A DNA stretch of 64,000 bases from positions 3,065,195 through 3,129,194 of the forward strand of contig NZ_CH672395.1 of NCBI RefSeq assembly GCF_000152985.1, given 5' to 3'. The stretch comes from Leeuwenhoekiella blandensis MED217 (GTDB lineage Bacteria > Bacteroidota > Bacteroidia > Flavobacteriales > Flavobacteriaceae). Under the pieces are notes generated by a model that was given only the letters and a program-made list of their open reading frames with translations, did not search any database and was not told the origin of the DNA. Position numbers and translations under genes: made by a program. This document shows positions 8,237 through 55,331 of the stretch, in pieces. Position 1 is the first letter of the stretch. The number at the start of each line of letters is the position of its first letter.

Positions 8237-8246
8237 CTTCTATAAT

Positions 8247-12385: not shown

Positions 12386-12395
12386 CTTCTAAATA

Positions 12396-39578: not shown

Positions 39579-40868
39579 TTAATTTCCGTCAGGTTTTAAA
39601 GCTTCAAACAAGCTGCTGAAGGGTATGGTATACGTTTCTGGACTGTTGGGTCTTTTAGGATTGTATTTTGGGGTATCTTCTGCGATATAATTTTTCAATT
39701 CTGAATCACTCGCTCTTAGTCCACTCACAACCGCAAGGGCAACTTCATTAGCGCCAAAATTGCTAAAATGCGTATTATCTTCAAGTTCATCACTTTGCCC
39801 CGGAAACATATTTGCAGCATACTGTACAAAGGCTTTTCTAGATAATTGTGGCCCCCAGGATTCATACATTTTGGTGGTCATTTTTGTAAGATCTATCAAC
39901 GTGACCGCTTCCTTTTTGGCTACTTTTCGCATAGCATCGGGAAATTCGCCGTGCGTAGGCGCTAATTCTTTACCGTCAAAAGCTCTGCGCTGTGTGGGTG
40001 TGATAAGTATAGGAATACCTCCTTTTTCTTTAATGCGCTGAATAAAATCGGTCATTATTTCGGTATAAAGACCATAGGCACCACCACCCTCGCCCTTGAT
40101 CTTTTCATCATTATGACCAAACTCGATGATCACAAAATCATCAGCTTTCAACTGGCTCAAGACCTTATCGATTCGACTTCCTCTAAAAGATGCCAGTGAA
40201 GCACCCGAAGAAGCTTGATTGGCAACAGCGATCTCCTCGTTTAAATAGGCCGTTATAAATTGCCCCCAAGATGCCCAAGGCTCCAGATCTTGATCTGTCA
40301 CGGTAGAATCTCCTACCAAAAATAAAGTTCTGGCATCTGCACTTTCAATAGTAACAGACTGTACCGTACTTGTTCCCAAAAACTCTAAAGTGAGTTTGTG
40401 ATCCCAATCTAATTTTACGAGTTCGCGGTCTTTCAGTTTTACTTTCTTCCCGGTTTCAATGATCGGGTTAAAAGCACTTACGATAAACGACTGCGTAACC
40501 TCATCTTTAGTAGTTATCTGTTCCTGCGGAATAAATAAGCGCTTAGATTCTGCTTTTACCGTCATTTCGGTATTTTTTCCTGATAAAGTTACGGTAACCT
40601 TATAATTTCCTTCAGGAAGAGCTACCGAAAAGTAAACAGGAATACCCGCTGTAAAACCTTGCTCCTGCATAGCTACGCGATAGGCGGTACCAAAATCAAA
40701 GCCATAGCGCATATCTGAATTAAAGGGCAAAGCCGTTCCTACATAAGTTGCTTCAGGCAGGTGTTGCTCTTGGCCAAAATCAAAAACCTTTTTGATCTGT
40801 TGTGCCTGTACGTTTATTTGTAAACTCAAGAACACCATTACTATAAGGAACCTGTTTATCTTTTTCAT
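39579..40868 (-). CDS. Rhamnogalacturonan acetylesterase (CE12-type) with N-terminal beta-sandwich
   Basis: This is a 429-residue secreted enzyme with a signal peptide (1-22). Residues ~25-175 form a beta-sandwich (FDFGQ, GNYKVTVTLSG, LTLEFLG), probably a carbohydrate-binding or structural module common in this subfamily. The SGNH domain (181-429) carries GDST with Ser188, FGHND with Asn253, and a C-terminal DNTHFSNFGA with the Asp/His pair. It probably deacetylates RG-I in the periplasm. It is second in the operon, 3 nt after the sialate-O-acetylesterase-like gene, and only distantly similar to the tandem enzyme downstream, so three different acetylesterases are made from one transcript. Confidence 0.9.
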   Translation of the reverse strand: MKKINRFLIVMVFLSLQINVQAQQIKKVFDFGQEQHLPEATYVGTALPFNSDMRYGFDFGTAYRVAMQEQGFTAGIPVYFSVALPEGNYKVTVTLSGKNTEMTVKAESKRLFIPQEQITTKDEVTQSFIVSAFNPIIETGKKVKLKDRELVKLDWDHKLTLEFLGTSTVQSVTIESADARTLFLVGDSTVTDQDLEPWASWGQFITAYLNEEIAVANQASSGASLASFRGSRIDKVLSQLKADDFVIIEFGHNDEKIKGEGGGAYGLYTEIMTDFIQRIKEKGGIPILITPTQRRAFDGKELAPTHGEFPDAMRKVAKKEAVTLIDLTKMTTKMYESWGPQLSRKAFVQYAANMFPGQSDELEDNTHFSNFGANEVALAVVSGLRASDSELKNYIAEDTPKYNPKRPNSPETYTIPFSSLFEALKPDGN

Positions 40869-40871
40869 CTT

Positions 40872-42386
40872 TTATAATTTATGCATTGTAGGCTGCGGCC
40901 AATCATCTGTTCTATAGGGTGATGCCGGTAAATCGTGAGCATTAAACAAAAGTACTTCAGGGCTGTTTTTCCAACCGAACCTCACAGCCTTAGGTTGCTC
41001 CACCGCTTTGCTAAAGACAACTAGATGATCATTTTCTATTTGCGCTTCGGCCTTATAAAAAACACCATCGGCACCTGCAATCTCAAGGTCTTTTAAGGCA
41101 TCTCCTTTAATATTCAGCCCATTACTGTGCTTAAAATAGATTTCGATCACTGCATCTTTGATCAAGTAATGATCATAAAGCGGGCCAGAAAACGCGATAT
41201 TCTTGGAGTAGGTATTGGCTAACGCCCAAGAGGCAAGCCGTTTACCTATAGGTTTTTTATTGCGGGGATGTATATCTTTTGGGTTGCCGTGATCTGCGCT
41301 TACGACCATTCCGCTATTTGGAATACGGTTTAAGGCCAGAAGTTGAGCTTCTCGTATTTCAGGAGTCTGCCCATGATGCGGTGCGATTTGCACATAGTAA
41401 AACGGAAAATCTCCTTGCTCCCACAGGTCTCGCCAATTTTTTACCATTGCCGGAAATAAACTGCGGTATTGATAGGCGCGATCTGCGTTGCTTTCGCCCT
41501 GATACCAAATAGCACCTTTAATTTTATAGTTCAAAAGCGGATGAATCATCGCATTATACAAGACGTAGGGAGCTTTATTTGCTTCTGCTTTTTTGGGTTT
41601 TTCAGGTGGCGTTGTCCCTGCTTGTTGTGCGCTATTGTACGCTGCTAAAGCTTGTTTATATGCGTGTTGCTTCAGCTCCTCTCTGTCTAAAATAGGCTGA
41701 AAATCTGGGTGCTGCTCCAACACCTCTTTTTGCATCCAGGATTCTACTTTTGTACCACCCCAAGACGAACTGATCAAACCTACAGGTACCTCAAGATCTT
41801 CAAGAAGATCACGCCCAAAAAAATAAGCTACAGCTGAAAAATCTGCAGCAGTTTCTGGAGTGCACTGTTGCCAATGTCCCTTAACATCAAGAAGCGGTTC
41901 TTGTGCTGCTGCAGTAGCCACTGTAAATAGTCTAAGATTGGGCAATTGAGCTTGAGCGATTTCCTTTTCAGAATCAATAATCCCGGTGCGCCAGGAGCTT
42001 CGTGCATCTTTCCCTAGAGGAAAAAACATATTAGACTGCCCTGAGCATAGCCAGACTTCTCCCAGCATCACGTCTTGCAATTCGATGCTATCTTCACCCG
42101 AAATTTTGATTGAATATGGTCCGCCAGCTGTAACCGTAGCCACATTTACAGACCAGTTTCCTGAATTATCTGCGGTGGCCTCCAACGCCTCTGCCTGCCA
42201 ACCAACCTGAATCTGGATTTTTTGGTTAGGAGCGCTCCATCCCCATAAGGTAACGTTTGCGTTCTGCTGCAAAACCATATGATCCCCAACTAATGCGGGA
42301 AGTCGCAGCTGTGCGCTAGCAAAACAGCAAATAAAAAAACAAGAAGCAACGAGTACAAGTCGTAATTTTTGGCAAAAATGCATCAT
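40872..42386 (-). CDS. Sialate O-acetylesterase-like (SASA) carbohydrate esterase
   Basis: This 504-residue secreted SGNH-superfamily esterase of the SASA/DUF303 family has a signal peptide ~1-26. An N-terminal beta-sandwich is followed by WLCSGQSNM (112-120, with the nucleophile Ser in GQSN), SWGGTKVESWM, and IWYQGESN. The C-terminal DIHPRNK contains the catalytic His region. Despite the family name, relatives act on acetylated plant or algal glycans, and the operon with two CE12-type esterases and GH2 points to acetylated RG-I. It is the first gene of the operon. The 18-bp box at 42433-42450 and a -7-like element lie just upstream. Confidence 0.9.
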   Translation of the reverse strand: MMHFCQKLRLVLVASCFFICCFASAQLRLPALVGDHMVLQQNANVTLWGWSAPNQKIQIQVGWQAEALEATADNSGNWSVNVATVTAGGPYSIKISGEDSIELQDVMLGEVWLCSGQSNMFFPLGKDARSSWRTGIIDSEKEIAQAQLPNLRLFTVATAAAQEPLLDVKGHWQQCTPETAADFSAVAYFFGRDLLEDLEVPVGLISSSWGGTKVESWMQKEVLEQHPDFQPILDREELKQHAYKQALAAYNSAQQAGTTPPEKPKKAEANKAPYVLYNAMIHPLLNYKIKGAIWYQGESNADRAYQYRSLFPAMVKNWRDLWEQGDFPFYYVQIAPHHGQTPEIREAQLLALNRIPNSGMVVSADHGNPKDIHPRNKKPIGKRLASWALANTYSKNIAFSGPLYDHYLIKDAVIEIYFKHSNGLNIKGDALKDLEIAGADGVFYKAEAQIENDHLVVFSKAVEQPKAVRFGWKNSPEVLLFNAHDLPASPYRTDDWPQPTMHKL

Positions 42387-42405: not shown

Positions 42406-42450
42406 TAAAAATACAATGCCCTTTTAAGTAAGGCATCCTGTACTGTTCTG
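42406..42450 (-). promoter_or_regulatory. Promoter and GntR-type box of the RG esterase/GH2 operon
   Basis: On the - strand CAGAACAGTACAGGATGC (42433-42450) is separated by exactly 19 nt from TATTTTTA (42406-42413), a one-mismatch -7 element. The same box, spacing and -7-like sequence occur before the rhamnose operon. The box occupies the place of the -33 element. Confidence 0.65.
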
Positions 42451-42484
42451 ATAAGCGTATTGATTACAGTTATTTAAAAACTAC

Positions 42485-43531
42485 TTATACCGAGTTGCGC
42501 TCGATATACTTAAAAACGTTCTTTACTTTTTCCTTTTTATTCTTGAGCACCATATAAGCAGCCGTCTCTCCCATTGCCTTAAAATCTGTACTGATCACCG
42601 TGATGCCAAGCAATTCTTTAAGCGGCGTTTCATTATAAGAGATCACGCCAACATCTTTACCCATAGTCAGGTTGCGCTCACGTATTTGACGCACCAGATT
42701 TACAAGATCCATTTCTTCAATAGTAATATAGACGTCTTTGCCTTCAAACTCCATATCTTCATAAATCTCGTTTAGAATTTCATATTCAAAATCATATTGC
42801 ATACAAAATTGTCTAAACCCGTGTAGAATGCGTCGTGGATAAGGATGACTGAGTTTCTCGGGATAAACCAATATCAGTTTTTCATACTTCTTTAGTTTCT
42901 CTTTCCCCTCGATCAAGGCATTGTAAATATCCTCCTTAAAATCTTGATAAATAGAACCGTAGTTCCCTTTTATCTCTGGTTTTGTATTGTCTACCATCAA
43001 CAATTGATCTTTGGGAATACGCTCGATCGCTTTTAAAACTTCAGGAGTAAAACTGACGTGATTAAAATCGTTATCCTTAAAATGAGGCATGATAACATAA
43101 TAGTTATACGCCCCCAGATTCTTCTCTATCGCATTCACAAACAACGACTCTTCACAATGATAGATGTATAGGTTAACGTGCGCATTAACGCCTAAGGTGT
43201 TCACAAAATGATTAAAGATCATCATCTTGTAAGAGCTGGGCTTGTTCACTAAAAAGAATACATTGATCTTAGAGATCAATTCGGTTTTTGCGGTGTAATA
43301 CCCTTTTCCTTTAACCGAAATAATCACCTTCCGCTCTTTAAGAATCTTATACGCTTTCTCTACCGTATCTCTACTCAAATAGGCAGACTCGCTCAATTCA
43401 TTAATCGATGGGATCTTCTCTCCTATTTTTAATTTCCCCTTGGCAACATCATCAATAATCGAATCAACAATTTGCTTGTATTTGGGTATACGGGAGTCTT
43501 CATTAATACTAATGTGAACATTTTGAGACAT
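42485..43531 (-). CDS. GntR-family transcriptional regulator with periplasmic-binding-like ligand domain
   Basis: This ~348-residue regulator has an N-terminal winged-helix GntR domain (IPKYKQIVDSIIDDVAKG, IPSINELSESAYLSRDTVEKAYKILKERK, GKGYY). A C-terminal type 1 periplasmic-binding-like sugar-sensing domain follows (LLMVDNTKPE, DVGVISYNETPLKELLGITVIST). The ATG at 43531 (MSQNVHIS) is preferred; the frame stays open to a TTG at 43576, but that extension is not like the family. The domain layout is that of FucR-type regulators of Bacteroidota sugar operons. It lies between the rhamnose operon and the RG esterase operon, and both have the same 18-bp box. The ligand is probably L-rhamnose or a rhamnose-derived metabolite. 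Confidence 0.88.
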   Translation of the reverse strand: MSQNVHISINEDSRIPKYKQIVDSIIDDVAKGKLKIGEKIPSINELSESAYLSRDTVEKAYKILKERKVIISVKGKGYYTAKTELISKINVFFLVNKPSSYKMMIFNHFVNTLGVNAHVNLYIYHCEESLFVNAIEKNLGAYNYYVIMPHFKDNDFNHVSFTPEVLKAIERIPKDQLLMVDNTKPEIKGNYGSIYQDFKEDIYNALIEGKEKLKKYEKLILVYPEKLSHPYPRRILHGFRQFCMQYDFEYEILNEIYEDMEFEGKDVYITIEEMDLVNLVRQIRERNLTMGKDVGVISYNETPLKELLGITVISTDFKAMGETAAYMVLKNKKEKVKNVFKYIERNSV

Positions 43532-43605
43532 AATGCGATAAGCGTGTGTTTGTTTGTGTTTTGTAAAACTAATCAAAAGATTAGCGTATTAAAAGATTTA
43601 TGTTG

Positions 43606-43650
43606 CAGTACAGCACAGGATGCTATCCTATTTGTTAACATCTATTTTTG
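43606..43650 (+). promoter_or_regulatory. Promoter and GntR-type box of the rhamnose operon
   Basis: CAGTACAGCACAGGATGC (43606-43623) is followed after exactly 19 nt by TATTTTTG (43643-43650), a full match to the TAnnTTTG -7 box. The ATG is 31 nt further on. The box is 16/18 identical to the one before the RG esterase operon and contains CAG at 5-bp intervals. Confidence 0.7.
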
Positions 43651-43681
43651 AAACAGATGCTTTAACCTTTACAAACTAAAA

Positions 43682-45778
43682 ATGGAAAAAACTTTTAGCC
43701 ACGTAGATTATCTTTGGGATGAACAAAAGGCGGCAGAATTAGGCGACGATCAGGTTGCTTTATTCTTATACCGCTCAAACATCCTTGGCGCAGATTTAAG
43801 AATAACAAATTACGGCGGCGGTAATACCAGCTGTAAAACCATAGAGAAAGACCCTCTTACCAATGAAGATGTAGAAGTAATGTGGGTAAAAGGTTCTGGT
43901 GGAGATATAGGAACTTTAACCAGACAAGGTATTGCAGGCCTTTATACAGAGCGTCTGAGAAATCTTAAAAATGTTTACGGCGGTCTCGAAGATGAAGACC
44001 GTATGGTTGGGCTTTTTAATCATTGTATTTATGATTTAGACTCGAAAGCACCTTCTATTGATACGCCACTTCACGGATTACTTCCTTTTGCACACATCGA
44101 TCACCTGCATCCTGATGCACTTATTGCCATTGCTGCAGCTGAAGATAGTGAGAAAATCACCAAAGAAATTTGGGGAGATACAATGGGTTGGGTGCCTTGG
44201 CAACGTCCGGGATTTGACCTTGGTCTTCAACTGGAAAAATGCCTGAATGAAAACCCTGGAATACGCGGAATTGTTTTAGGAAGCCACGGACTTTTTACGT
44301 GGGGAGATACTTCTTATGAGTGCTATATCAATAGCCTTGAAGTGATCGAAAAAGCTTCTTCTTATATTGAGAAAAAGGTAAAAGAAAACGGAAGCGTGTT
44401 TGGTGGGCAAAAAATTGAAAGTTTACCGGCAGATCAGCGTAAAGATCAGGCTGCTAAATTAATGCCACTTCTACGCGGACTTGCTTCTTCTGAAAACCGA
44501 ATGATAGGTCATTTTACTGATAGTGACACAGTACTTCAGTTTATCAACAGCAATGATCTTGATAAATTAGCTCCAATGGGAACTTCGTGCCCAGACCACT
44601 TTTTGCGCACCAAGATTCAACCATTGATCTTAGACTTAGATAAAGATGCAGATCTTGACGATACCGAAGCGGTGCTAGCTAAATTAGAACCTTCTTTTGA
44701 ACAATACCGTCAAGAATATAAAGACTATTACGAAAGCTGCAAACACGATAACAGCCCGGCGATGCGTGATCCTAACCCTGTGATCATCATTTTTCCGGGA
44801 GTGGGAATGTTCAGCTTTGCTAAAAATAAACAAACCACACGTGTAGCAAGCGAATTCTACATCAACGCGATTAACGTAATGCGTGGTGCAGAAGCGATTA
44901 CCAGCTACACTTCATTACCACGCCAAGAGGCATTTGACATCGAATATTGGTTGCTTGAAGAAGCAAAATTGCAACGTATGCCTAAAGAGCAACCCCTTTC
45001 TCGTAAAGTAGCTTTAGTTACCGGTGCTGCCGGCGGAATTGGTAAAGCGATCGCAGATAAACTTGTTGCTGAAGGTGCCAATGTGGTACTTACCGATATG
45101 AGCGACGAAGCCTTAAAAGAAGCTGTTGCGACGTATAAAAAAGATCAAGTTGCCGGTGCCGTTTGTGACGTTACCAGCGAAGAAGCGATTAAAAAAGCCT
45201 ACAAAGAAGCTTGTTTAGCCTTTGGTGGTGTAGATATTGTAATTCACTCTGCGGGATTAGCAATTTCTAAAGCTTTAGAAGACACCACTCAAAAAGATTG
45301 GGATTTATTACAGAATGTGCTTGTTAAAGGGCAATTCTTAATGGCTCAGGAAGGTGTTGCGATTATGCGCAAGCAAGGCTTAGGCGGTGATATTGTGAAT
45401 ATCGCAAGTAAAAACGGACTTGTTTCAGGACCTAATAACGTGGGTTATGGTACTGCAAAAGCCGCTCAACAACATATGACACGTTTACTCGCAGCAGAAT
45501 TAGGCAGTGATAAAATACGTGTAAATACCGTAAACCCTGATGGTGTTATTGTAGGTAGCAAAATCTGGGAAGGAGCTTGGGCTGAAGGTCGTGCAAAAGC
45601 GTACGGCATAGAAGTCAAAGATTTACCTGCACACTATGCAAAACGCAATTTGCTTAATGAGATCATCCTGCCAGATGATATAGCAGATGGAGTTTTTGCT
45701 TGTGTGGGCGTACTGCAAAAAAGTACCGGAAATACCATCAATGTTGACGGTGGTATGGCTAATGCTTTTGTACGCTAA
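43682..45778 (+). CDS. rhaEW: Bifunctional L-rhamnulose-1-phosphate aldolase / L-lactaldehyde dehydrogenase
   Basis: This 698-residue cytoplasmic fusion protein has an N-terminal class II aldolase-type domain (about 15-430; NYGGGNTSCK, HTPLHG-like DTPLHGLLPFAHIDHLHPD) that splits L-rhamnulose-1-phosphate into DHAP and L-lactaldehyde. The C-terminal short-chain dehydrogenase domain has TGAAGGIG (447-454) and the catalytic Tyr589-x-x-x-Lys593 in YGTAK, and oxidises lactaldehyde to L-lactate. The size and order match known RhaEW enzymes. It is the first gene of the operon, followed by isomerase, kinase and lactate dehydrogenase. The promoter carries the shared 18-bp box. It replaces the separate RhaD and AldA enzymes of enterobacteria. 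Confidence 0.93.
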   Translation: MEKTFSHVDYLWDEQKAAELGDDQVALFLYRSNILGADLRITNYGGGNTSCKTIEKDPLTNEDVEVMWVKGSGGDIGTLTRQGIAGLYTERLRNLKNVYGGLEDEDRMVGLFNHCIYDLDSKAPSIDTPLHGLLPFAHIDHLHPDALIAIAAAEDSEKITKEIWGDTMGWVPWQRPGFDLGLQLEKCLNENPGIRGIVLGSHGLFTWGDTSYECYINSLEVIEKASSYIEKKVKENGSVFGGQKIESLPADQRKDQAAKLMPLLRGLASSENRMIGHFTDSDTVLQFINSNDLDKLAPMGTSCPDHFLRTKIQPLILDLDKDADLDDTEAVLAKLEPSFEQYRQEYKDYYESCKHDNSPAMRDPNPVIIIFPGVGMFSFAKNKQTTRVASEFYINAINVMRGAEAITSYTSLPRQEAFDIEYWLLEEAKLQRMPKEQPLSRKVALVTGAAGGIGKAIADKLVAEGANVVLTDMSDEALKEAVATYKKDQVAGAVCDVTSEEAIKKAYKEACLAFGGVDIVIHSAGLAISKALEDTTQKDWDLLQNVLVKGQFLMAQEGVAIMRKQGLGGDIVNIASKNGLVSGPNNVGYGTAKAAQQHMTRLLAAELGSDKIRVNTVNPDGVIVGSKIWEGAWAEGRAKAYGIEVKDLPAHYAKRNLLNEIILPDDIADGVFACVGVLQKSTGNTINVDGGMANAFVR

Positions 45779-45803
45779 TTTTAATTGAATTGTTTTTAAT
45801 TAT

Positions 45804-45843
45804 CAGAAACTCCAGATTCTGTTTTTAGTCTCAGGAGTTTCTG
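45804..45843 (+). other. Stem-loop between rhaEW and rhaI
   Basis: A perfect 10-bp stem CAGAAACTCC/GGAGTTTCTG (45804-45813 with 45834-45843) has a 20-nt loop in the 95-nt gap. Only a weak T-run follows, so partial termination or mRNA processing is more likely than a full stop of transcription. Confidence 0.55.
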
Positions 45844-45873
45844 TTAATTTAATATCCTCCAAAATTGTCTTCC

Positions 45874-47154
45874 ATGAATATCGAAACACAACAACTACAA
45901 GATCTCAACGCAAAAAACCTTTCTACTCATAAATCCCAATTCGATTTCCTAACTCAAACGTTGTCGAAATCTAACATTGATGTTAATCAGGTTATTCAAA
46001 AATTAGCCGATTTTCAAGTGGCGATTCCTAGCTGGGCATTAGGGGCCGGTGGAACCCGCTTCGGAAGATTCTCTTACGGAGGAGAACCTGCTTCTTTAGA
46101 GCAAAAGATTGAAGACATCGGGCTTATTCATAAGCTTACCCAAACCGCAGGAGCTGTTTCATTACACATTCCTTGGGATGTGCCTGAGGATTATAATGCG
46201 ATAAAAGAACTCGCTGCGATCAACAAGATCAAGTTTGATGCGGTAAACAGCAACACCTTTCAGGATCAAAAAAATCAAAAGGAAACCTATAAGTACGGTT
46301 CGCTGAGTAATACCAGTGCCGCTGTACGTGAGCAGGCAATTGCGCACAACAAAGAAGTTGTAGAGATCGGAAATAAACTAGGATCAAAAAGCTTAACCGT
46401 TTGGTTGGCTGACGGGGCTTCTTTTCCCGGGCAAAACAACTTTCAAACTGCATTAACCCATACCCAAAACAGCTTGATCTCGATCTATGAAGATATGCCG
46501 GCTGATTGGAAAATGTTTATCGAGTATAAACCTTATGAGCCGTACTTCTACAGTACCGTTATTCAAGATTGGGGAACCTCGTTAATGCTTGCTAACGGTT
46601 GTGGTGAACGCGCCTATACCTTGGTAGATTTAGGACACCACCTTCCAAACACCAATATCGAACAAATTGTTTCCATTCTTATGCTGAAAGGAAAACTTGG
46701 TGGTTTTCATTTTAACGACAGTAAATATGGTGATGACGATATCACCGTAGGAAGCATTAAGCCTTATGCACTCTTCCTCATCTTTAACGAGTTGGTTTAC
46801 GGAATGCAAAACAATCCACAAAACCCGGAATTGGGTTGGATGATCGATGCGAGTCATAACCTCAAAGATCCGCTTGAAGATTTGATTCAATCGCTTGAAG
46901 CGATTCAAGAAGCCTACGCAAAAGCGCTCTTGATCGATCAAGATGCTTTACGAGCTGCCCAAGAAAATAACGATGTTACCTTGTGTCAGGAGATTTTACA
47001 AACCGCTTACCGCACAGACGTACGCCCATTGGTTCAGGAGGCGCGTCTAAAAACCGGCGGAGCGCTTAATCCTATTGCAGCCTATCGCGAACTAGGTGTG
47101 CGTGATGCGCTTATTAAAACCAGAGGTAAAAACACAGTGGCAACGGGACTATAA
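45874..47154 (+). CDS. rhaI: L-rhamnose isomerase
   Basis: This 426-residue cytoplasmic isomerase converts L-rhamnose to L-rhamnulose. It belongs to the RhaI (Pseudomonas stutzeri-type) group of TIM-barrel isomerases, not to the E. coli RhaA type. WALGAGGTRFGRF (about 54-66) is followed by HIPWD, SLTVWLADGASFPGQ, FIEYKPYEP, VDLGHHLPNTN and FHFNDSKYGDDD; the last four contain the Glu, His and Asp metal ligands. The ATG at 45874 (MNIETQQL) is preferred to the TTG at 45865. It ends 17 nt before the kinase. Together with rhaEW and rhaB it completes the phosphorylating rhamnose pathway. Confidence 0.93.
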   Translation: MNIETQQLQDLNAKNLSTHKSQFDFLTQTLSKSNIDVNQVIQKLADFQVAIPSWALGAGGTRFGRFSYGGEPASLEQKIEDIGLIHKLTQTAGAVSLHIPWDVPEDYNAIKELAAINKIKFDAVNSNTFQDQKNQKETYKYGSLSNTSAAVREQAIAHNKEVVEIGNKLGSKSLTVWLADGASFPGQNNFQTALTHTQNSLISIYEDMPADWKMFIEYKPYEPYFYSTVIQDWGTSLMLANGCGERAYTLVDLGHHLPNTNIEQIVSILMLKGKLGGFHFNDSKYGDDDITVGSIKPYALFLIFNELVYGMQNNPQNPELGWMIDASHNLKDPLEDLIQSLEAIQEAYAKALLIDQDALRAAQENNDVTLCQEILQTAYRTDVRPLVQEARLKTGGALNPIAAYRELGVRDALIKTRGKNTVATGL

Positions 47155-47171
47155 ACTGCAAGCAAGAGTTA

Positions 47172-48545
47172 ATGAAGAAGACAGTTACGGCAGTATTTGA
47201 TATCGGAAAAACCAACAAGAAATTCTTTCTTTTTGACGACGAGTTTCAAGAGGTTTATCGTGAATACGTTCAGTTTGATGAAATCACAGATGAAGACGGG
47301 CATCCTACCGAAGATCTTTCAGCACTTCGCGATTGGTTAAAAACGGTTTTTGACCGCATGCTTAAAACTGAAAAGTATGAGATCAAAGCCATAAATTTCT
47401 CTTCATACGGGGCAAGTCTCGTGCATTTGGATGAAAATCGCGATGTGATTTTCCCTTTGTATAATTATACGAAATCGATTCCACAAAATATCATTGATAG
47501 CTTTTACGAGAAATACGGTCCAGAGGCAGATTTTCATCAGAAGACAGGTTCGTCTAGCTCGGGAATGCTCAACGCCGGGATGCAACTCTACTGGTTGAAA
47601 AACACCAAGCCTGAAGTATTTAAAAAAATCAGGTATTCGTTGCACTTACCGCAATATTTAAGTTTTGTGTTTACAGGAATTCCGTTGAGCGAGTACACCA
47701 GTATAGGCTGCCATACTTCACTTTGGGATTTTGAAAAAAGAGATTACCACGACTGGGTTTATGCCGAAAACTTAGATCAGATCCTCCCTCCTATCGTTTC
47801 TACCGAAACGAGCATCAATATGAATTATAACGGCAAACGTATTAAAATTGGCGTGGGTATTCATGACAGTTCGGCGGCTTTGCTTCCGTATGTACGCAGC
47901 CTTAAAAATCAATTCATTTTGATCTCGACCGGAACGTGGAGTATCGCGCTCAACCCATTTGTAGAGCGTACGTTGAGCAAAAAAGACGTTGCAGATGATT
48001 GTATCAATTATATGCGCATCAATGGTAAACCGGTTAAATCGGCACGCTTATTTTTGGGCAATGAATACAGCATTCAGGTTAAAAAACTAACCGAGTATTA
48101 TCAGGTAGATAAGGACTATCACAAGACCGTAAAATTTGATCCTGAAATTCATTACGAGATCGTTAAAGAATTTGAGAAAATCTTCAAATGGGAATCTATT
48201 GAAGATCCTGAAATGCCTGAAGAAACCCATTTGCGCTACACCTCTTTTGATCACGCTTATCATCATTTGATGATGGAACTCGTACTACTACAGGTAGAGA
48301 GCATCAAAAGTGCAAAAGGGAATATGACTATCGAAAAACTCTTTGTTGACGGTGGTTTCAGCGATAACGATATTTATATTCATTTGTTATCGCATCATTT
48401 CAGAACTATGGAATTGCGCACTACAGACTCCTCGCTGGGATCTGCCTTAGGCGCAGCAATTTGTATCTCTGACACCCAACTGAACTCTAAATTTTTAAAG
48501 AAAAATTATTCGATGAAAAAGCATATTCCTTTCATCGCTAAATAA
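47172..48545 (+). CDS. rhaB: L-rhamnulokinase-like FGGY carbohydrate kinase
   Basis: This 457-residue FGGY kinase is expected to phosphorylate L-rhamnulose to L-rhamnulose-1-phosphate. The N-terminal ATP-binding segment FDIGKTNKKFFLFD is at 9-22. GIHDSSAALLPY carries the catalytic Asp region, STGTWSIAL the second phosphate loop, and FVDGGFSDNDIY and SSLGSALGAA the C-terminal ATP site. The length is slightly below that of enterobacterial RhaB (about 490), as is usual for the Bacteroidota type. Its place between isomerase and lactate dehydrogenase supports the rhamnulokinase role; sequence alone would also allow a fuculokinase-like activity. Confidence 0.87.
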   Translation: MKKTVTAVFDIGKTNKKFFLFDDEFQEVYREYVQFDEITDEDGHPTEDLSALRDWLKTVFDRMLKTEKYEIKAINFSSYGASLVHLDENRDVIFPLYNYTKSIPQNIIDSFYEKYGPEADFHQKTGSSSSGMLNAGMQLYWLKNTKPEVFKKIRYSLHLPQYLSFVFTGIPLSEYTSIGCHTSLWDFEKRDYHDWVYAENLDQILPPIVSTETSINMNYNGKRIKIGVGIHDSSAALLPYVRSLKNQFILISTGTWSIALNPFVERTLSKKDVADDCINYMRINGKPVKSARLFLGNEYSIQVKKLTEYYQVDKDYHKTVKFDPEIHYEIVKEFEKIFKWESIEDPEMPEETHLRYTSFDHAYHHLMMELVLLQVESIKSAKGNMTIEKLFVDGGFSDNDIYIHLLSHHFRTMELRTTDSSLGSALGAAICISDTQLNSKFLKKNYSMKKHIPFIAK

Positions 48546-48550
48546 CTACT

Positions 48551-49702
48551 ATGGCTAACTCCTTTGACACTGCATATCCATCGGTTGATGATTTACGCTC
48601 CAAAGCAAAAAAGCGCGTTCCTGCATTTGCTTTTGAATATCTGGATGGTGGTTGTAATGAAGATGTAAGCATACAACGCAACACTTCAGAAATACGCGAC
48701 GTACAGCTACAGCCGCGTTACCTCAACAATTACGGACAAAGTTCGACAAAGACCAAAGTACTCGGGATGGAATTTGATGCGCCTTTTGGTATCGCTCCAG
48801 TGGGTTTACAAGGGCTGATGTGGCCTAATTCTCCCGCGATCTTAGCCAAAGCAGCGCATAAAAATAACATTCCGTTTATTTTGAGTACGGTAACCACAAT
48901 GAATATTGAAAAGGCAAGCGAACTTACCGAAGGAAATGCGTGGTTTCAGTTGTACAATCCTGTTGAAGATGCGGTGCGCAATGATATTATAGATCGAGCC
49001 GAGGCTGCCGGTTGTCCCGTTTTAGTCCTGCTGTGCGATGTACCGACTTTTGGTTACAGACCACGAGATTTTAGAAATGGGCTCGCACTTCCGCCAAAGA
49101 TGTCTGCCAAGAATATTATGCAGATTTTGGGTAAACCTACTTGGGCGTTCAACACGCTTAAACACGGTCAACCAACTTTTGAAAACTTAAAACCATATAC
49201 GCCGGAAGGTTTAAATCTGAAACAACTCGGCGCGTTTATGGACCGTACTTTTTCAGGAAAACTCAACGAAGATAAAATAAAACCCATCCGCGATCGCTGG
49301 AAAGGAAAACTAGTACTCAAAGGTGTACAATCGTTGCAAGACACTCAGGATGCCATAAGAATGGGCTTTGACGGGATCATTGTTTCTAACCACGGTGGCC
49401 GCCAACTAGATGCTGCTCAATCTACTATCAATTCATTAAAAGAAATCGCAGCCAACTACGGTGATCAAATTGAAGTGATGATGGACAGCGGTTTACGCTC
49501 TGGGCCAGATATCGCTCGTGCGATGGCTTGCGGTGCAAAATTCACCTTTATGGGGCGCTCCTTTATGTACGGCTGTGGTGCTCTAGGTAACAAAGGTGGT
49601 GAGCATACCATCGGGATGCTCAAAACCCAATTCAAACAAGTGATGGATCAATTGGTGTGTGAGCGCGTTGAAGATCTACCCAAACATTTAATAACCTCCT
49701 AA
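48551..49702 (+). CDS. lldD: FMN-dependent L-lactate dehydrogenase (alpha-hydroxy acid dehydrogenase)
   Basis: This 383-residue FMN-dependent alpha-hydroxy acid dehydrogenase has FEYLDGG (near 29-35), FGIAPVG (near 78-84), the active-site block SNHGGRQLD with catalytic His281 and the substrate-binding Arg, and DSGLRSGPDIARAMACGA for FMN phosphate binding. It starts 5 nt after rhaB. In the operon context it oxidises the L-lactate made by RhaEW to pyruvate and feeds electrons to the respiratory chain. That completes rhamnose conversion to DHAP and pyruvate. Glycolate or mandelate oxidase activity is the generic alternative. Confidence 0.9.
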   Translation: MANSFDTAYPSVDDLRSKAKKRVPAFAFEYLDGGCNEDVSIQRNTSEIRDVQLQPRYLNNYGQSSTKTKVLGMEFDAPFGIAPVGLQGLMWPNSPAILAKAAHKNNIPFILSTVTTMNIEKASELTEGNAWFQLYNPVEDAVRNDIIDRAEAAGCPVLVLLCDVPTFGYRPRDFRNGLALPPKMSAKNIMQILGKPTWAFNTLKHGQPTFENLKPYTPEGLNLKQLGAFMDRTFSGKLNEDKIKPIRDRWKGKLVLKGVQSLQDTQDAIRMGFDGIIVSNHGGRQLDAAQSTINSLKEIAANYGDQIEVMMDSGLRSGPDIARAMACGAKFTFMGRSFMYGCGALGNKGGEHTIGMLKTQFKQVMDQLVCERVEDLPKHLITS

Positions 49703-49704
49703 CT

Positions 49705-51132
49705 ATGTCGCAATACAATCAAGAAGAAGAAACTATAGAGGAAATCGCCGGTGGTGAATTTGAACGCCAGGCGGTGCCTCAATCCAGACTACAAAGTTGG
49801 AAGGCATTTTTAGGAATGTACGCCGGAGAGCACGCTGCAGGTACCGAATTTGTAATCGGCCCGTTATTCCTTACTACGGGAGTAAGCGCTTTTGACCTTA
49901 TCGTTGGGCTACTCATTGGGAACTTAATGGCGGTGTTGAGCTGGCGTTTTTTAACGGCAGAGATCGGAACCAAGTTTCGATATACGCTGTATTTTCATTT
50001 GGAAAAAATCTGCGGAAAACGTTTAGTAACCGCTTACAATCTTGCTAATGGTGTACTTTTCTGTTTTCTAGCAGGGGCGATGATCACGGTTTCGGCTACA
50101 GCCGTTGGGATTCCGTTTGATATGGAAATGCCCAAACTCACCGATACCACTCCTAACAGTCTTACTTGGGTGATCATTGTAATCGCTATTGGTGCTGTGA
50201 TTTCCATAATTGCCGCAAAAGGATATCAAACCGTAGCAAAAGCTGCAAACTGGATGTCTCCGGTGATCGTGCTGGCGTTTATCGCTTGTGGCGTGGTAGC
50301 GTTGATTCAGTTAGATGTACACAGCTTTACTGACTTTTGGAATATTTGGGGAGAAGGCAGCGAACCTTTTCCGGGGCAAATAAAATATACGTTCTGGCAC
50401 GTTGTGCTATGGTCGTGGTTTGCTAATGCTGCGATGCATATTGGGATGTCTGACCTCTCTGTTTTCCGCTTTGCGAAAAAACCAAGCGCAGGCTGGACGA
50501 CCGCCGGTGGAATCTACATAGGGCATTATGTTGCCTGGATCGCGGCAGCATTATTATATGCTGTTTATTTAAAATCACCAGAAGCTCAAGCGATGCTGGC
50601 AGGCGGTGAGGCACCGTCAGTAGCTCCGGGACCTTTAGCTAATAATGCTATTGGAATTTTTGGAATTATTGCTGTCATTCTCGCAGGATGGACGACTGCA
50701 AACCCAACCATCTATCGCGCCGGACTTGCATTTCAAGCCATTATGCCAAAGGTTTCAACTTTTTGGGTCACCATAATCGCAGGATCTGTAGCGACGATTG
50801 CAGGTTTATTTCCTGCTTTTGCAATGAAATTATTAGGTTTCGTAGCACTTTATGGATTCATTCTTGCCCCGATTGGAGCGATAATCGTATTTGATCATTT
50901 CTTTGGTAAGGCTGCGGGAATTCAACCGTTTTATGCTGAAAAGACCGGGGTAAAATTCAACTGGGCAGTATTTGGTGCTTGGGCATTAAGCTTTGGTGTC
51001 TTTTATTTTATCTCAGTTCAGTATGATGTATTCTTATCCTTCCTAACCTTACCGGCCTGGATAAGCTGCGGAATTCTGTTTTTAATTTTCAGTAAATTTT
51101 ATCAAACAAAAACTGCTCCTGTGAGCACTTAA
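49705..51132 (+). CDS. NCS1/cytosine permease-like transporter, candidate L-rhamnose (or lactate) carrier
   Basis: This 475-residue inner-membrane protein has about 12 hydrophobic segments. It begins with a soluble acidic stretch, then GMYAGEHAAGTEFVIGP (about 33-49) and VGLLIGNLMAVLSWRF, which resemble the first helices of nucleobase:cation symporter-1 (cytosine permease-like) proteins. FGIIAVILAGWTTANPT (near 313-330) is another family-like segment. It starts 2 nt after lldD and is the last gene of the rhamnose operon, followed by a terminator. No RhaT or rhamnose ABC system is present. The position suggests transport of rhamnose or of the lactate produced, not of pyrimidines. The family call is fairly safe; the substrate is inference. 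Confidence 0.8.
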   Translation: MSQYNQEEETIEEIAGGEFERQAVPQSRLQSWKAFLGMYAGEHAAGTEFVIGPLFLTTGVSAFDLIVGLLIGNLMAVLSWRFLTAEIGTKFRYTLYFHLEKICGKRLVTAYNLANGVLFCFLAGAMITVSATAVGIPFDMEMPKLTDTTPNSLTWVIIVIAIGAVISIIAAKGYQTVAKAANWMSPVIVLAFIACGVVALIQLDVHSFTDFWNIWGEGSEPFPGQIKYTFWHVVLWSWFANAAMHIGMSDLSVFRFAKKPSAGWTTAGGIYIGHYVAWIAAALLYAVYLKSPEAQAMLAGGEAPSVAPGPLANNAIGIFGIIAVILAGWTTANPTIYRAGLAFQAIMPKVSTFWVTIIAGSVATIAGLFPAFAMKLLGFVALYGFILAPIGAIIVFDHFFGKAAGIQPFYAEKTGVKFNWAVFGAWALSFGVFYFISVQYDVFLSFLTLPAWISCGILFLIFSKFYQTKTAPVST

Positions 51133-51228
51133 AGTATAACGCTTAGGTAAACTACCTCAGGGCAAGCCAAGGAGTTTAACCCTTTGGCGGTGCCAATAAA
51201 GCGTAAACAATAATTATTTGTGTGTGTA

Positions 51229-51266
51229 AATGGTCGTCAATCTCGCAGGTGGCGGCCATTTCTTTT
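51229..51266 (+). terminator. Terminator of the rhamnose operon
   Basis: A 10-bp stem (51229-51238 with 51251-51260, two G-U pairs, AATGGTCGTC/GGCGGCCATT) with a 12-nt loop is followed by TCTTTTT. A second, imperfect hairpin around GCCAAGG...CCTTTGGC lies upstream at about 51163-51194. Confidence 0.75.
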
Positions 51267-51283
51267 TGATAACCCATTACAAA

Positions 51284-51328
51284 ACAGGTAGGAACAGGAT
51301 ACGTTTTCTATAAAGATTATTAATATTG
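51284..51328 (+). promoter_or_regulatory. Promoter and weaker GntR-type box before the GH28 operon
   Basis: CAGGTAGGAACAGGATAC (51285-51302) matches the rhamnose-operon box at 12 of 18 positions, with the ACAGGAT core intact. It is followed after 18 nt by TAATATTG (51321-51328), a one-mismatch -7 element. The start codon is at 51353, so the leader would be short. Confidence 0.5.
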
Positions 51329-51352: not shown

Positions 51353-52828
51353 ATGAGATACTTTTCTACATTTTTCTTGCTGAGCATACTCCTTACTGCA
51401 AGCTGTAAAAACACTTCAGAAAATAACACTTCAGAAACAACCTCTTCTGAGCCGGAATGGATCAGTCAAGTGGGCGCGAATGACCTTGAATTCAATGAAA
51501 AAGTTTTCTATGTAAATGACTACGATGCTATTGCAGACGGGAGCGCATTAACCACCACCGCTATTCAACAAGCCATAGACGCTGCAGCAGCAAACGGAGG
51601 CGGCACGGTCACGTTCAAGCCGGGAACTTATCTTAGCGGTTCAATTTTTATTAAGGAAAATGTACACTTTAATATTCCGGAAGGTGTAGCCATTTTGGGT
51701 AGCGAGTCTATTGAAGATTACCCCGAGATCGATACACGCGTTGCCGGTATCGAAATGAAATGGCCTGCTGCACTCATCAACGTTTTAGATCAAAAAAACG
51801 TTACAATTGATGGTGAAGGACTGGTGGACGGCCAGGGAAAAGTCTATTGGGACTATTATTGGAACTTACGCGAAGAATATGAACCCAAAGGTTTACGCTG
51901 GATCGTAGATTATGATGCCAAACGCCCACGTACCTTCTTACTTCAAAATGCTGAAAATGTATTTCTAAAAGACCTCAATATTCAGCGCGCCGGATTTTGG
52001 ACGGTACAAGTACTCTATTCCAACCACATTACAGTAGACGGCTTGACCATTCGAAACAATATTGGCGGTCACGGCCCCAGTACCGATGGGATCGATATTG
52101 ACAGTTCAAAATATATTTTAGTTCAAAACTGCGATATCGATTGCAACGATGATAACTTTTGTCTAAAAGCAGGACGCGATTGGGACGGACTTCGGGTAGA
52201 TCGTCCTACCGAATATGTGGTGATCAGAGATTGTATCGCTCTTGCAGGGTCTGGCTTAACGACCATAGGTAGTGAGACAAGTGGAGATATTCGGCACGTA
52301 TTTGTTTCCAATATTCAAGGAAAAGGAACCAAAACCGGACTCAAAATAAAATCAGCAACCAACCGAGGCGGAACCGTAGAAGACATTCATATGCAAAATA
52401 TCAAGATGGATAGCGTAGGGACCTTTATGCAAGTTTCGATGAACTGGAATCCTTCGTACAGCTATTCTAAATTACCGGAGGGCTATGATTACGATTCCAT
52501 CCCAAAACGCTGGAAAACCCTACTCGAAGAAGTTACGCCTCCAGAAAAAGGAATCCCAACGTTTAAAGATATTAGCATTTCAAACATCGAGGTTCAAGGC
52601 GCCAAACGCGCGATCTACGTGAACGGAATGGAAACTTCTACAGTAAGCAATATTCAACTGACTGATGTACATATTGCTGCACAGGAAGCCGGTCAAATAA
52701 CGTACAGTAAAGATTGGACCCTTGACAATGTGAGTCTCAATATCGCCGATGGTTCTACGCTAACAATAGAAAATGCACCTGGCGTTGAATTCCCTAATAC
52801 CCTATACATCGCCAATGATGAAGATTAA
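51353..52828 (+). CDS. GH28 pectinase (rhamnogalacturonan hydrolase/polygalacturonase family)
   Basis: This 491-residue lipoprotein (lipobox ending at Cys18, LTASC) starts at the ATG at 51353; the open frame extends to a TTG at 51326 without support. It has a right-handed beta-helix. STDGIDI (243-249) gives catalytic Asp245 and NDDNFCLKAG (265-274) gives Asp266 and Asp267. The third canonical element GHG is replaced by AGSG (298-301), with Ser300 in place of His, and the RIK motif appears as LKIKS. Loss of this His is known in rhamnogalacturonan hydrolases of GH28, which fits the rhamnose and PL11 context. It heads a five-gene operon. An RG hydrolase or an exo-acting galacturonidase are the likely activities. 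Confidence 0.9.
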   Translation: MRYFSTFFLLSILLTASCKNTSENNTSETTSSEPEWISQVGANDLEFNEKVFYVNDYDAIADGSALTTTAIQQAIDAAAANGGGTVTFKPGTYLSGSIFIKENVHFNIPEGVAILGSESIEDYPEIDTRVAGIEMKWPAALINVLDQKNVTIDGEGLVDGQGKVYWDYYWNLREEYEPKGLRWIVDYDAKRPRTFLLQNAENVFLKDLNIQRAGFWTVQVLYSNHITVDGLTIRNNIGGHGPSTDGIDIDSSKYILVQNCDIDCNDDNFCLKAGRDWDGLRVDRPTEYVVIRDCIALAGSGLTTIGSETSGDIRHVFVSNIQGKGTKTGLKIKSATNRGGTVEDIHMQNIKMDSVGTFMQVSMNWNPSYSYSKLPEGYDYDSIPKRWKTLLEEVTPPEKGIPTFKDISISNIEVQGAKRAIYVNGMETSTVSNIQLTDVHIAAQEAGQITYSKDWTLDNVSLNIADGSTLTIENAPGVEFPNTLYIANDED

Positions 52829-52829
52829 T

Positions 52830-55331
52830 ATGAAATTGAACTTTCTAAGTTACCTCGCTTTTTTCCTCTGTATTTTTCAGTTCACTGCCGCCTGCTCTCA
52901 AGCTGCAAATCATTTTGAGCTGGTAACAGAACGTCAAAAAGTAAGTATTATTTATGATAAAGACGGAGTTGCACTTGATTCTATTGCAGCACACTTACTT
53001 GCAAAAGATATTGAACGCGTAAGTGGATATTTGCCTCAGGTAACTACTGCTATAAATTCGGTATCTGGAAACGCAATCGTTATAGGTAGTCAAGCCTCTG
53101 ATTTGATACAAAGCTTTTCAGAAGCAACCACCCCAAAACAAGAAGCTTGGGAAAGCTATACCCTTAAACTTGTAAAACCGAAAAGTAGCCCAATCAAAAA
53201 TGCTTTGGTTATTGCAGGCGCAGATGCCCGAGGAACCGCTTACGGCGTGTTTGATATTTCAGAAAAAATTGGCGTTTCTCCTTGGTACTGGTGGGCTGAC
53301 GTAGTTCCTGAAAAGCAAGAAGAATTAACACTTGAAGTCAGTTCATTTCAGTCTAAAAGTCCACAAGTAAAATACCGTGGTATTTTTCTTAACGATGAAG
53401 ATTGGGGGTTGCAACCTTGGGCTGAGCATACCTTTGAACCCGAAACCGGTGATATAGGACCTAAAACCTACGCAAAGATCTTCGAGTTATTGCTACGCCT
53501 AAAAGCCAATGCGATTTGGCCGGCGATGCACCCCAGCACCAAAGCCTTTTTTCACTATCCGGGTAATCTAAAAATAGCCGAAAACTATGAGATCGTTTTA
53601 GGCTCTTCTCACGCCGAGCCGATGCTACGCAACAATGTTGACGAATGGGATCACGATACGATGGGGGATTTTAACTATTTCAGCAATAAAGAAAAAGTGC
53701 TCAAGTATTGGGAAGATCGCGTAGAAGAAGCTCAAAACGCCAACGGTATTTACACCGTGGGAATGCGAGGCGTTCACGACAGCGGAATGGCGGGCGCAAA
53801 AAGCACGGAAGACGCGGCTAATATCCTAAATCAAATCATTCAGGATCAGCGAAAACTTTTACAAAAGCACGTTGGGAATCCAGAGGAAATCCCACAAGTA
53901 TTTACCGTTTATAAGGAAGTGCTGGATGTTTATGAATATGGTCTGGAGCTTCCTGAAGACATAACCCTGATGTGGACCGACGACAACTACGGCTACATCC
54001 GCCGACTTAGTAACGCTGAAGAACGCAAGCGCAGCGGCGGAAGCGGAGTATATTATCACGCTTCGTATTGGGGAAGACCGCACGATTATCTCTGGTTGAG
54101 CACCACACACCCGGCACTTATTAGAGAAGAAATGCTCAAGGCCTACGACACCGGTGCAGACAAGATCTGGATTCTTAATGTGGGCGATCTTAAACCTGCA
54201 GAATACAATATGCAGTTTTTTATGGATCTCGCTTTTGATCCCGAATCCTTTAGAAAACCGGATAGCTATAAGCAGCATATGACCGATTTCTATGAAGGAA
54301 TCTTTGGAAGTGATCTAGGAGCCGAAATTAGCAGCCTGCGTGAAACCTATTATGACCTCGCCTGGCTCAGAAAACCTGAGTTTATGGGATGGAGTCAAAC
54401 CGAACCTACACGTCCTACACATTTGACAGCATTTAGTTTAGAAGAAGAAAACCCACAACGACGTGCTGCCTATCAACACTTGGAACAAGAGGTTGCTACG
54501 CTTAGCAATACCATTGAAGATGCACAGCAAGACGCTTGGTTTCAGCTTGTGGCCTATCCTATTTTGGGCGCTTCAGCAATGAATCAGAAATATTTATATC
54601 GGGATTTAGCGAGTTTCAATACGAAACAGAATCCAGAACTAACGCAAAACTATCAGGATTCCATCGCGCTAAAACAACAGCAGATTCAGGAGCTTACCAA
54701 AAAGTACAATACCCAGATCGCTGGTGGGAAATGGAATCGTATGATGCACAGTGCGCCACGCGGTTTACCGGTTTACAAAGTACCCGATGCCGTACTTGCT
54801 GATGAAGAAGCCGTTCAAAAATATCCAAAACCCGTGATCTCAAGAAAACTGGCTAACTTTTCTAATGCAGAAAATTTTGAAGAAGGCTTTCCGCAGGAAT
54901 TAACCGGTTTGGGATATTCTAAAACCGCATTACAACTCGCACCGGCTACTCATAACGCCTACTCCGCTACTGCTTTTACAGAGAATCCGGTCTTACACTT
55001 TGACATGGAACTGGAGCAAACTATAGCAGAGGCAACCCTTACGCTAACAGCTGTTCCCAATCATCCGATTACCGGTGAGCAAAAGTTACGCCTTGGCGTT
55101 CAATGGGATGATCTACCGGTAGAGATCCTTAATTTTGAAACCCACGGAAGAAGCGAAACCTGGAAGATCAATGTATTACGTAATCAGGCGCGCGCCTCAT
55201 TAAACCTGAAAGAACTCAATGCCGGCAAACATCAATTAAAGCTTTTTGTTATTGATCCCGGCGTGCTCCCGGATTATTTCACCATAACTCAAGCAAATCA
55301 AAAGATTCCCTATACCTTTTCAAATCAATAA
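52830..55331 (+). CDS. GH115 alpha-glucuronidase
   Basis: This 833-residue lipoprotein (lipobox TAAC within the first 25 residues) uses the ATG at 52830, 2 nt after the GH28 stop; earlier in-frame Met codons at 52815 and 52818 overlap GH28 and are less likely. The family core is clear: GTAYGVFDISEKIGVSPWYWWADV, FLNDEDWGLQPWAEHTFEPE, ANAIWPAMHP and LGSSHAEPMLRN in the N-terminal half, and YHASYWGRPHDYLWL and WILNVGDLKPAEYN in the barrel. A C-terminal all-beta domain follows. GH115 enzymes release alpha-1,2-linked (4-O-methyl)glucuronic acid from xylan or arabinogalactan side chains. In this operon, side chains of RG-I or arabinogalactan are the probable target. Confidence 0.93.
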   Translation: MKLNFLSYLAFFLCIFQFTAACSQAANHFELVTERQKVSIIYDKDGVALDSIAAHLLAKDIERVSGYLPQVTTAINSVSGNAIVIGSQASDLIQSFSEATTPKQEAWESYTLKLVKPKSSPIKNALVIAGADARGTAYGVFDISEKIGVSPWYWWADVVPEKQEELTLEVSSFQSKSPQVKYRGIFLNDEDWGLQPWAEHTFEPETGDIGPKTYAKIFELLLRLKANAIWPAMHPSTKAFFHYPGNLKIAENYEIVLGSSHAEPMLRNNVDEWDHDTMGDFNYFSNKEKVLKYWEDRVEEAQNANGIYTVGMRGVHDSGMAGAKSTEDAANILNQIIQDQRKLLQKHVGNPEEIPQVFTVYKEVLDVYEYGLELPEDITLMWTDDNYGYIRRLSNAEERKRSGGSGVYYHASYWGRPHDYLWLSTTHPALIREEMLKAYDTGADKIWILNVGDLKPAEYNMQFFMDLAFDPESFRKPDSYKQHMTDFYEGIFGSDLGAEISSLRETYYDLAWLRKPEFMGWSQTEPTRPTHLTAFSLEEENPQRRAAYQHLEQEVATLSNTIEDAQQDAWFQLVAYPILGASAMNQKYLYRDLASFNTKQNPELTQNYQDSIALKQQQIQELTKKYNTQIAGGKWNRMMHSAPRGLPVYKVPDAVLADEEAVQKYPKPVISRKLANFSNAENFEEGFPQELTGLGYSKTALQLAPATHNAYSATAFTENPVLHFDMELEQTIAEATLTLTAVPNHPITGEQKLRLGVQWDDLPVEILNFETHGRSETWKINVLRNQARASLNLKELNAGKHQLKLFVIDPGVLPDYFTITQANQKIPYTFSNQ

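Follow-up and report, generated by a model that had tools for sequence, protein, structure and literature searches.

Two operons on opposite strands of a 64,000-nucleotide (nt) stretch of the Leeuwenhoekiella blandensis MED217 genome (NZ_CH672395.1; the whole stretch is hereafter the window) are preceded by the same 18-bp sequence box, and the gene for a GntR-family regulator lies between the two copies. We propose that this box quite probably serves the AraR-type GntR protein encoded next to it as a directional operator, and that the protein would act as a class II-type activator of a regulon for rhamnose and rhamnose-containing polymers. Binding, activation and ligand are what we infer, the sign of regulation from promoter geometry and the ligand from gene content. 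The elements of the two promoters, and the regulator, are as follows.

43606-43623, + strand: Rha box 1, CAGTACAGCACAGGATGC, in the promoter of the rhaEW operon (27.7 bits)
43624-43642, + strand: 19-nt spacer of the box 1 promoter, sequence not conserved
43643-43650, + strand: -7 element TATTTTTG of the rhaEW operon
42433-42450, - strand: Rha box 2, CAGAACAGTACAGGATGC, in the promoter of the esterase/GH2 operon (27.1 bits)
42414-42432, - strand: 19-nt spacer of the box 2 promoter
42406-42413 (read 42413->42406), - strand: -7 element TATTTTTA of the esterase/GH2 operon
42485-43531, - strand: GntR-family regulator of 348 amino acids (aa), the proposed box-binding protein, with a PF00392 helix-turn-helix (HTH) and a PF13377 sensor

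The initial annotation had described a box shared by the rhamnose and esterase/GH2 operons, and both its likeness and its placement stand: boxes 1 and 2 agree at 16 of 18 positions, and each lies exactly 19 nt before TATTTTT(G/A). Allowing up to three mismatches, the window has no further match, and none of 100 dinucleotide shuffles contained two. The consensus is CAGtACAGtACAGGATAS. Its self-similarity is directional and not inverted (r 0.69 at shifts of 5 and 10, against 0.53 for the best inverted match), so the CAG repeat is indeed unlike a simple palindromic GntR operator. A shared box at fixed promoter spacing is thus confirmed, and it extends more widely than first noted.

The spacing recurs among relatives. 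When the box core was searched in 60 relatives with any gap from 6 to 36 nt before the -7 element, 26 of the 43 matches had the window's own gap, one of 31 allowed; two of these 26 came from a genome without such a GntR protein (G019). The 120 distinct sites assembled, which were selected for the -7, read CAG-n-ACAG-n-ACAGGATAS over 18 positions, followed by 19 that carry almost no information and, after them, TAnnTTTG. For a sample unselected for gap, 80 named loci (857 kb) were taken by their GntR protein alone and scanned with a box matrix that holds no -7 information and was trained partly on the same genera. This gave 85 boxes of at least 16 bits, one overlapping pair among them, and none in the sequences read backwards. 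A -7 element followed at gap 19 in 70 of the 85, with every other gap represented three times at most; under the strict form TAnnTTTG, gap 19 accounts for 36 of 38. A box was present in 51 of the 80 loci, and 43 had the box with a -7 at gap 19; these 43, one of which is a metagenome-assembled genome (MAG) without a genus, carry 18 genus labels, and the box is also found in Chryseobacterium/Epilithonimonas and a few other Bacteroidota. Across the 77 boxes that have TAnnTT 19 nt downstream, identity is 31% in the spacer versus 77% in the box. These comparisons point to a gap that is constrained, not inherited.

The box therefore reaches into the -35/-33 region and keeps a constant spacing to the core promoter. 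Because it ends 19 nt before a -7 element that spans -12 to -5 in Flavobacterium psychrophilum, according to the accessible text of that study (PMC9723704), it would lie at -49 to -32 with its centre near -40.5. This position coincides with the expected place of the -33 element. Among 50 other TAnnTTTG promoters, seven have TTG 17-24 nt upstream of the -7; none of 48 box promoters does, but there the box occupies most of those positions and the comparison says little. Class II activators sit around a centre of about -40.5. The earlier suggestion that the box replaces the -33 element fits this geometry. A third site, before the GH28-PL11 operon, is weak and has a gap of 18.

In the mechanism that we propose, the AraR-type GntR protein would bind the directional direct repeat (CAGnA every 5 and 10 bp, ending CAGGATAS) and, so placed at about -49 to -32, would stand in for the sigma-A -33 element and help RNA polymerase start at TAnnTTTG, as a class II-type activator. 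Its activity would be controlled by a rhamnose-derived ligand that binds the LacI-like sensor domain. The regulon would join the cutting and deacetylation of rhamnogalacturonan I (RG-I) with rhamnose catabolism and galacturonate catabolism (the last in 7 of 10 GntR-bearing genomes of the genus), and in relatives would also take in sulfatase and SusC operons. We favour an activator, which goes beyond the initial annotation, because the gap is fixed.

The N-terminal winged HTH of the regulator scores 46.7 bits with PF00392 (cut-off 27) and its C-terminal LacI/GalR-like sensor 29.3 bits with PF13377 (cut-off 26.5). The best fold matches of its AlphaFold model (mean pLDDT 84, pTM 0.65) in the Protein Data Bank (PDB) are LacI/RbsR-type regulators (E ~1e-10, TM ~0.45), and the HTH of AraR is among the PDB sequence matches. 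The protein is therefore of AraR type, a GntR HTH joined to a LacI-like sensor. Bacillus subtilis AraR has the same make-up but is named a repressor in the PDB, whereas the site here repeats in one direction and keeps a single spacing to the -7. The typical GntR-family motif is a palindrome, and direct repeats are known for few GntR proteins, as given in the accessible text of PMC4494728; because those few exist, a non-palindromic box does not exclude a member of this family.

Three lines of evidence support GntR as the likely binder of the box: adjacency, co-occurrence and the motif of a sister clade. Across 149 genomes of the family, searched for the core, 21 nt and TAnnTTT with at most one mismatch and for GntR at E <= 1e-70, the site was found in 29 of 33 genomes with GntR (124 sites against 8 control matches); among the 116 lacking GntR, 14 had it (19 sites against 15 control matches, near background), a difference with Fisher p = 3e-16. 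More distant GntR proteins (36-48% identity) led to a galactose-linked sister clade, 37-39% identical and with neighbours read as galK/galT/galM, that has a different box. This box, ACTRGTAGGnnCTRGTAGG, is a 10-bp direct repeat present in 27 of 30 loci (L185-L214), and its gap to TAnnTTTG varies from 7 to 33; we found no description of this operator in the accessible parts of the open-licence literature. Two clades of one family with two different direct repeats argue that the GntR protein reads the box, and a single fixed gap in the rhamnose clade but not in the galactose clade suggests that the former touches RNA polymerase.

Within the genus, whose genomes match named Leeuwenhoekiella records, the GntR gene is present in 9 of 12 other genomes. 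The initial annotation had expected the box to be conserved in orthologous loci, and an upstream motif search at up to four mismatches bears this out: all 11 rha loci have the box ahead of rhaEW, nine with a 19-nt gap to TAnnTTT, while the two loci of one genome (G007) carry TATATTCG and TAATTTGT at that position. GDSL and GH2 genes lie across GntR in 8 of the 11 loci, and on that side the box is present in six of the eight, with TAnnTTT at gap 19 in four. One sister species (G004) has two GntR-rha loci (L047, L048), with GntR proteins 84-85% identical to that of the window.

Over the whole genome, a scan at up to three mismatches gave 11 matches, boxes 1 and 2 among them, and a reversed-pattern control none. 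One match lies 12.5 kb past the window's end (L010 12540-12557, - strand), exactly 19 nt before TAATTTAT, and precedes a DUF6250 gene and a second PL11 lyase (L010 9904-12557; 9.9-12.6 kb past the window's end). The longest frame of this first gene (GTG start, 11796-12569) would include the box, and a later ATG was taken as the start. DUF6250 may be an RG-I-related protein. Another match, with two mismatches (G000:C1:1310178; L009 8179-8196), was rejected as chance, as it lies inside an opposite-strand open reading frame (ORF; 6711-8354). Searching with the gap and -7 included adds a site at G000:C1:1045817, ahead of a uronate operon with kduI, an SDR gene, uxaC, a PfkB-type kinase, KDPG aldolase, a mannitol-dehydrogenase-type gene, altronate dehydratase, a TRAP transporter and, at its end, a LacI-family gene; the names kduD, kdgK and uxaB within it are putative readings of the sequence. 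Seven of the 10 GntR-positive genomes in the genus carry a uronate box of at least 16 bits. The RG-I backbone is built of two sugars, rhamnose and galacturonate.

The regulon appears wider than first proposed, taking in putative targets for uronate catabolism, a second PL11 operon, SusC, sulfatases, alpha-rhamnosidase and fructose-1,6-bisphosphatase (FBPase). From the 120 sites, 112 had an ORF and 86 first genes were scanned, leaving out cases with the box inside an ORF, a start more than 200 nt away or a protein under 90 aa. These encode the RhaEW class II aldolase domain (18, one gene counted twice), SusC-type plug (12), GDSL esterase (7), sulfatase (6), alpha-L-rhamnosidase (4), KduI (4), GH2 (4), FBPase (2), L-rhamnose mutarotase RhaM (2), CCG domain (2) and SASA (2). 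Of all 120 boxes, 21 lie inside an ORF of at least 150 aa, some of them chance matches. Sites thus stand before rhamnose catabolic genes in many genomes, and the link first drawn between polymer cutting, deacetylation and rhamnose use holds in the comparative data across relatives. As a tag that many relatives share before genes acting on rhamnose-containing polymers of plants or algae, the box suggests that one sugar-sensing protein turns these genes on together. Since box and -7 distance can be found from sequence, the rhamnose regulon can be listed in any new genome, and the box predicts which loci of unknown substrate (sulfatase, SusC and GH families) are devoted to polymers that contain rhamnose. 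In several relatives (L129, L169, L176 and others) boxes stand before operons with sulfatase and SusC genes, an arrangement that would fit ulvan-like or other sulfated rhamnose polymers.

Loci without the site were followed further. The 29 of 80 loci without a box include 23 from Chryseobacterium and 2 from Weeksellaceae MAGs, and in the box-less loci inspected rhaEW lay outside the fetched flank. Of the 37 loci that have no box at gap 19, 17 were traced to rhaEW, 14 of these from Chryseobacterium/Epilithonimonas. At 17 of the 18 rhaEW genes reached, a box of at least 16 bits is followed by 19 nt and a -7; the eighteenth has a degenerate box (8.7 bits), 19 nt and then TACTTTTG. The 14 Chryseobacterium/Epilithonimonas promoters are 98% identical in the box and 68% in the spacer. 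We therefore rejected box loss in Chryseobacterium: in the 14 genomes followed, the apparent loss arises because rhaEW lies farther from GntR, beyond the fetched flank, and this distant rhaEW carries the box.

The same data bear on other accounts of the box. An ordinary GntR repressor might bind across the -33 region, block polymerase and leave on binding a rhamnose derivative. Most GntR regulators do repress, the box falls where the -33 element would be, and the galactose sister clade looks arranged in this way, with the same kind of repeat at gaps of 7-33. A repressor would have no need of an exact distance, yet 70 of 85 boxes keep gap 19, no other gap exceeds three and the spacers share 31% identity, so we consider simple repression unlikely. 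Less probable still is that another regulator binds the box and GntR only travels along, be it the hybrid two-component protein (31168-35130), an AraC protein or the LacI-family protein encoded at the end of the uronate operon. Repeats in direct orientation, spaced by one turn close to a promoter, suit AraC-type domains in general, and B. thetaiotaomicron RhaR is an AraC-family positive regulator (accessible text of PMC3878776 and PMC3870299). Against such a regulator, the site tracks GntR across the 149 genomes, a GntR sister clade owns a 10-bp direct repeat of its own, and no box precedes kduI in either of the two sister genomes of the genus that have kduI and lack GntR (0/2). Fixed spacing and a box in the -33 place could also be expected of a -35-type element that an alternative sigma factor itself recognises, a reading that we rejected as very improbable: the -7 is of the sigma-A type TAnnTTTG, and 18 bp is long for a -35 element. 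In the accessible text of PMC9723704, the alternative-sigma motifs of F. psychrophilum differ, though TAnnTTGY is close.

Several observations weigh against an activating GntR protein that reads this box. GntR-family proteins are mostly repressors, and a flavobacterial GntR regulator of alginate genes is reportedly called a repressor in the title of its study. The galactose-clade gaps, though variable, cluster at 16-21 (13 of 16). Four of the 33 GntR genomes are site-less, three with a GntR 42-44% identical and one, G084, an exception with a 61%-identical GntR and yet no exact-gap site; conversely, 14 GntR-negative genomes hold one or two matches each. In the genus, three of the 10 GntR-positive genomes lack the uronate box and one has it at gap 18, and two loci with GntR paralogues in G014 (L057, L058) have no box at four mismatches. 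A phylum sample of 198 genomes, searched for rhaEW at E <= 1e-180 and a GntR relative at E <= 1e-50, held rhaEW in 29 genomes, 24 of which have the GntR relative; because the two largely co-occur, co-occurrence alone cannot single out GntR. Regions upstream of rhaEW were located there by position, the protein anchor having missed many loci. Of 26, seven have a box-like site at gap 19 (five at 15 bits or more), 16 have no box, and three have a box with another gap or with no -7 at 19; two further regions have one weak site at gap 19 and none, respectively. Several of the site-less regions closely follow the end of another gene, and on our reading no promoter is expected there.

Taking both sides together, we still lean, somewhat less firmly than for the operator itself, towards a broader form of the activator proposal. 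A GntR/LacI-sensor hybrid would serve as a dedicated class II activator that replaces the -33 element, with its operator locked 19 nt from the -7; one rhamnose-sensing regulon would bring together the pathways for pectin RG-I, ulvan-like polymers and uronates in Flavobacteriales and outside that order; and the galactose sister would have kept a repressor-like layout. The rhamnose clade with its fixed gap and the galactose clade with its variable gap form a clean pair for studying shifts between repression and activation, and bear on a sugar-regulator family at a promoter with a weak -33 element.

Polysaccharide loci of marine and soil Bacteroidota have mostly been treated singly, under hybrid two-component, SusR or anti-sigma control. 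FadR of Escherichia coli, which sits near -40 at fabA, differs from the window's GntR in its sensor domain, its palindromic site and its phylum. Another GntR-family regulator, FucR of Bacteroides thetaiotaomicron, is said to be a repressor. The alginate GntR of Zobellia galactanivorans, which we take to be AusR, is similarly a flavobacterial regulator of a polysaccharide system, but a repressor by the title of its report. In the accessible texts, FadR is a GntR-superfamily protein that both represses and activates (PMC3460868), and FucR governs fucose use in Bacteroidota but has a single target operon (PMC3878776). Likewise, RhaR of B. thetaiotaomicron positively regulates rhamnose catabolism in the same phylum (PMC3878776, PMC3870299, accessible text), but belongs to the AraC family and has a single target operon (PMC3878776). 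The rhamnose regulators described in the accessible text of PMC3870299 belong to the AraC, DeoR and LacI families, and the word GntR occurs 0 times in the main text of that article. Titles and abstract openings in the open-licence literature yielded no GntR rhamnose regulator of Bacteroidota, nor this regulon.

The genes around the boxes and the third site are as follows.

43682-45778, + strand: rhaEW, bifunctional rhamnulose-1-phosphate aldolase/dehydrogenase (NF006191, NF006189 and TIGR02632 above cut-off)
45877-47154, + strand: rhaI-like L-rhamnose isomerase (TIGR02629, E 2e-148, below cut-off)
47172-48545, + strand: FGGY sugar kinase, rhamnulokinase candidate (rhamnulokinase models far below cut-off)
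48551-49702, + strand: FMN-dependent L-lactate dehydrogenase-like protein (below NCBIfam cut-off)
49705-51132, + strand: protein of 475 aa, transporter-like on our reading of its sequence, candidate rhamnose permease
40872-42386, - strand: SASA-type carbohydrate esterase (PF03629), first gene behind box 2
39579-40868, - strand: GDSL esterase, adjacent to GntR in 8 sister loci that lack the SASA gene
36699-39560, - strand: GH2 enzyme
35179-36690, - strand: GDSL esterase with two matched stretches, rhamnogalacturonan acetylesterase candidate
31168-35130: hybrid two-component protein
51285-51302, + strand: weak third box CAGGTAGGAACAGGATAC, before the GH28-PL11 operon, with a gap of 18 to TAATATTG (51321-51328)
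51353-52828, + strand: GH28 (rhamnogalacturonase/polygalacturonase-like)
52773-55331, + strand: GH115
55342-57213, + strand: PL11 rhamnogalacturonan lyase

Box 1 heads the rhaEW, isomerase-like, FGGY kinase, L-lactate dehydrogenase-like and transporter-like genes, and box 2 the genes for the SASA esterase, the first GDSL esterase, the GH2 enzyme and the second GDSL esterase. The 475-aa transporter-like protein has no Pfam or NCBIfam match. Proteins closely alike at the N-terminus are encoded by the first genes behind their own boxes in two other genomes (L165, L167), and because similar proteins head these box-led genes we regard it as a possible member of a rhamnose permease family that has yet to be described.

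The third copy placed before the GH28-PL11 operon by the initial annotation is present, 18 nt before its -7-like element, and is the third best site in the window. Its 13.8 bits, compared with 27.7 and 27.1 for boxes 1 and 2, fall inside the shuffled range (one-strand maxima of 6.9-19.6 in 20 single-base shuffles). The same variant, CAGGTARGRRCAGGATRC, precedes GH28 in two sister species (L041, L042), where the -7 fit is poor, with TATTTTAC at gap 19 in L041 and none recognised in L042. Its place in the regulon is thus weakly supported.

Finally, FBPase genes stand behind box-like sites with two core mismatches (L172 4581-5585, L056 8548-9546; placement putative), and gluconeogenesis would thereby be tied to rhamnose use.

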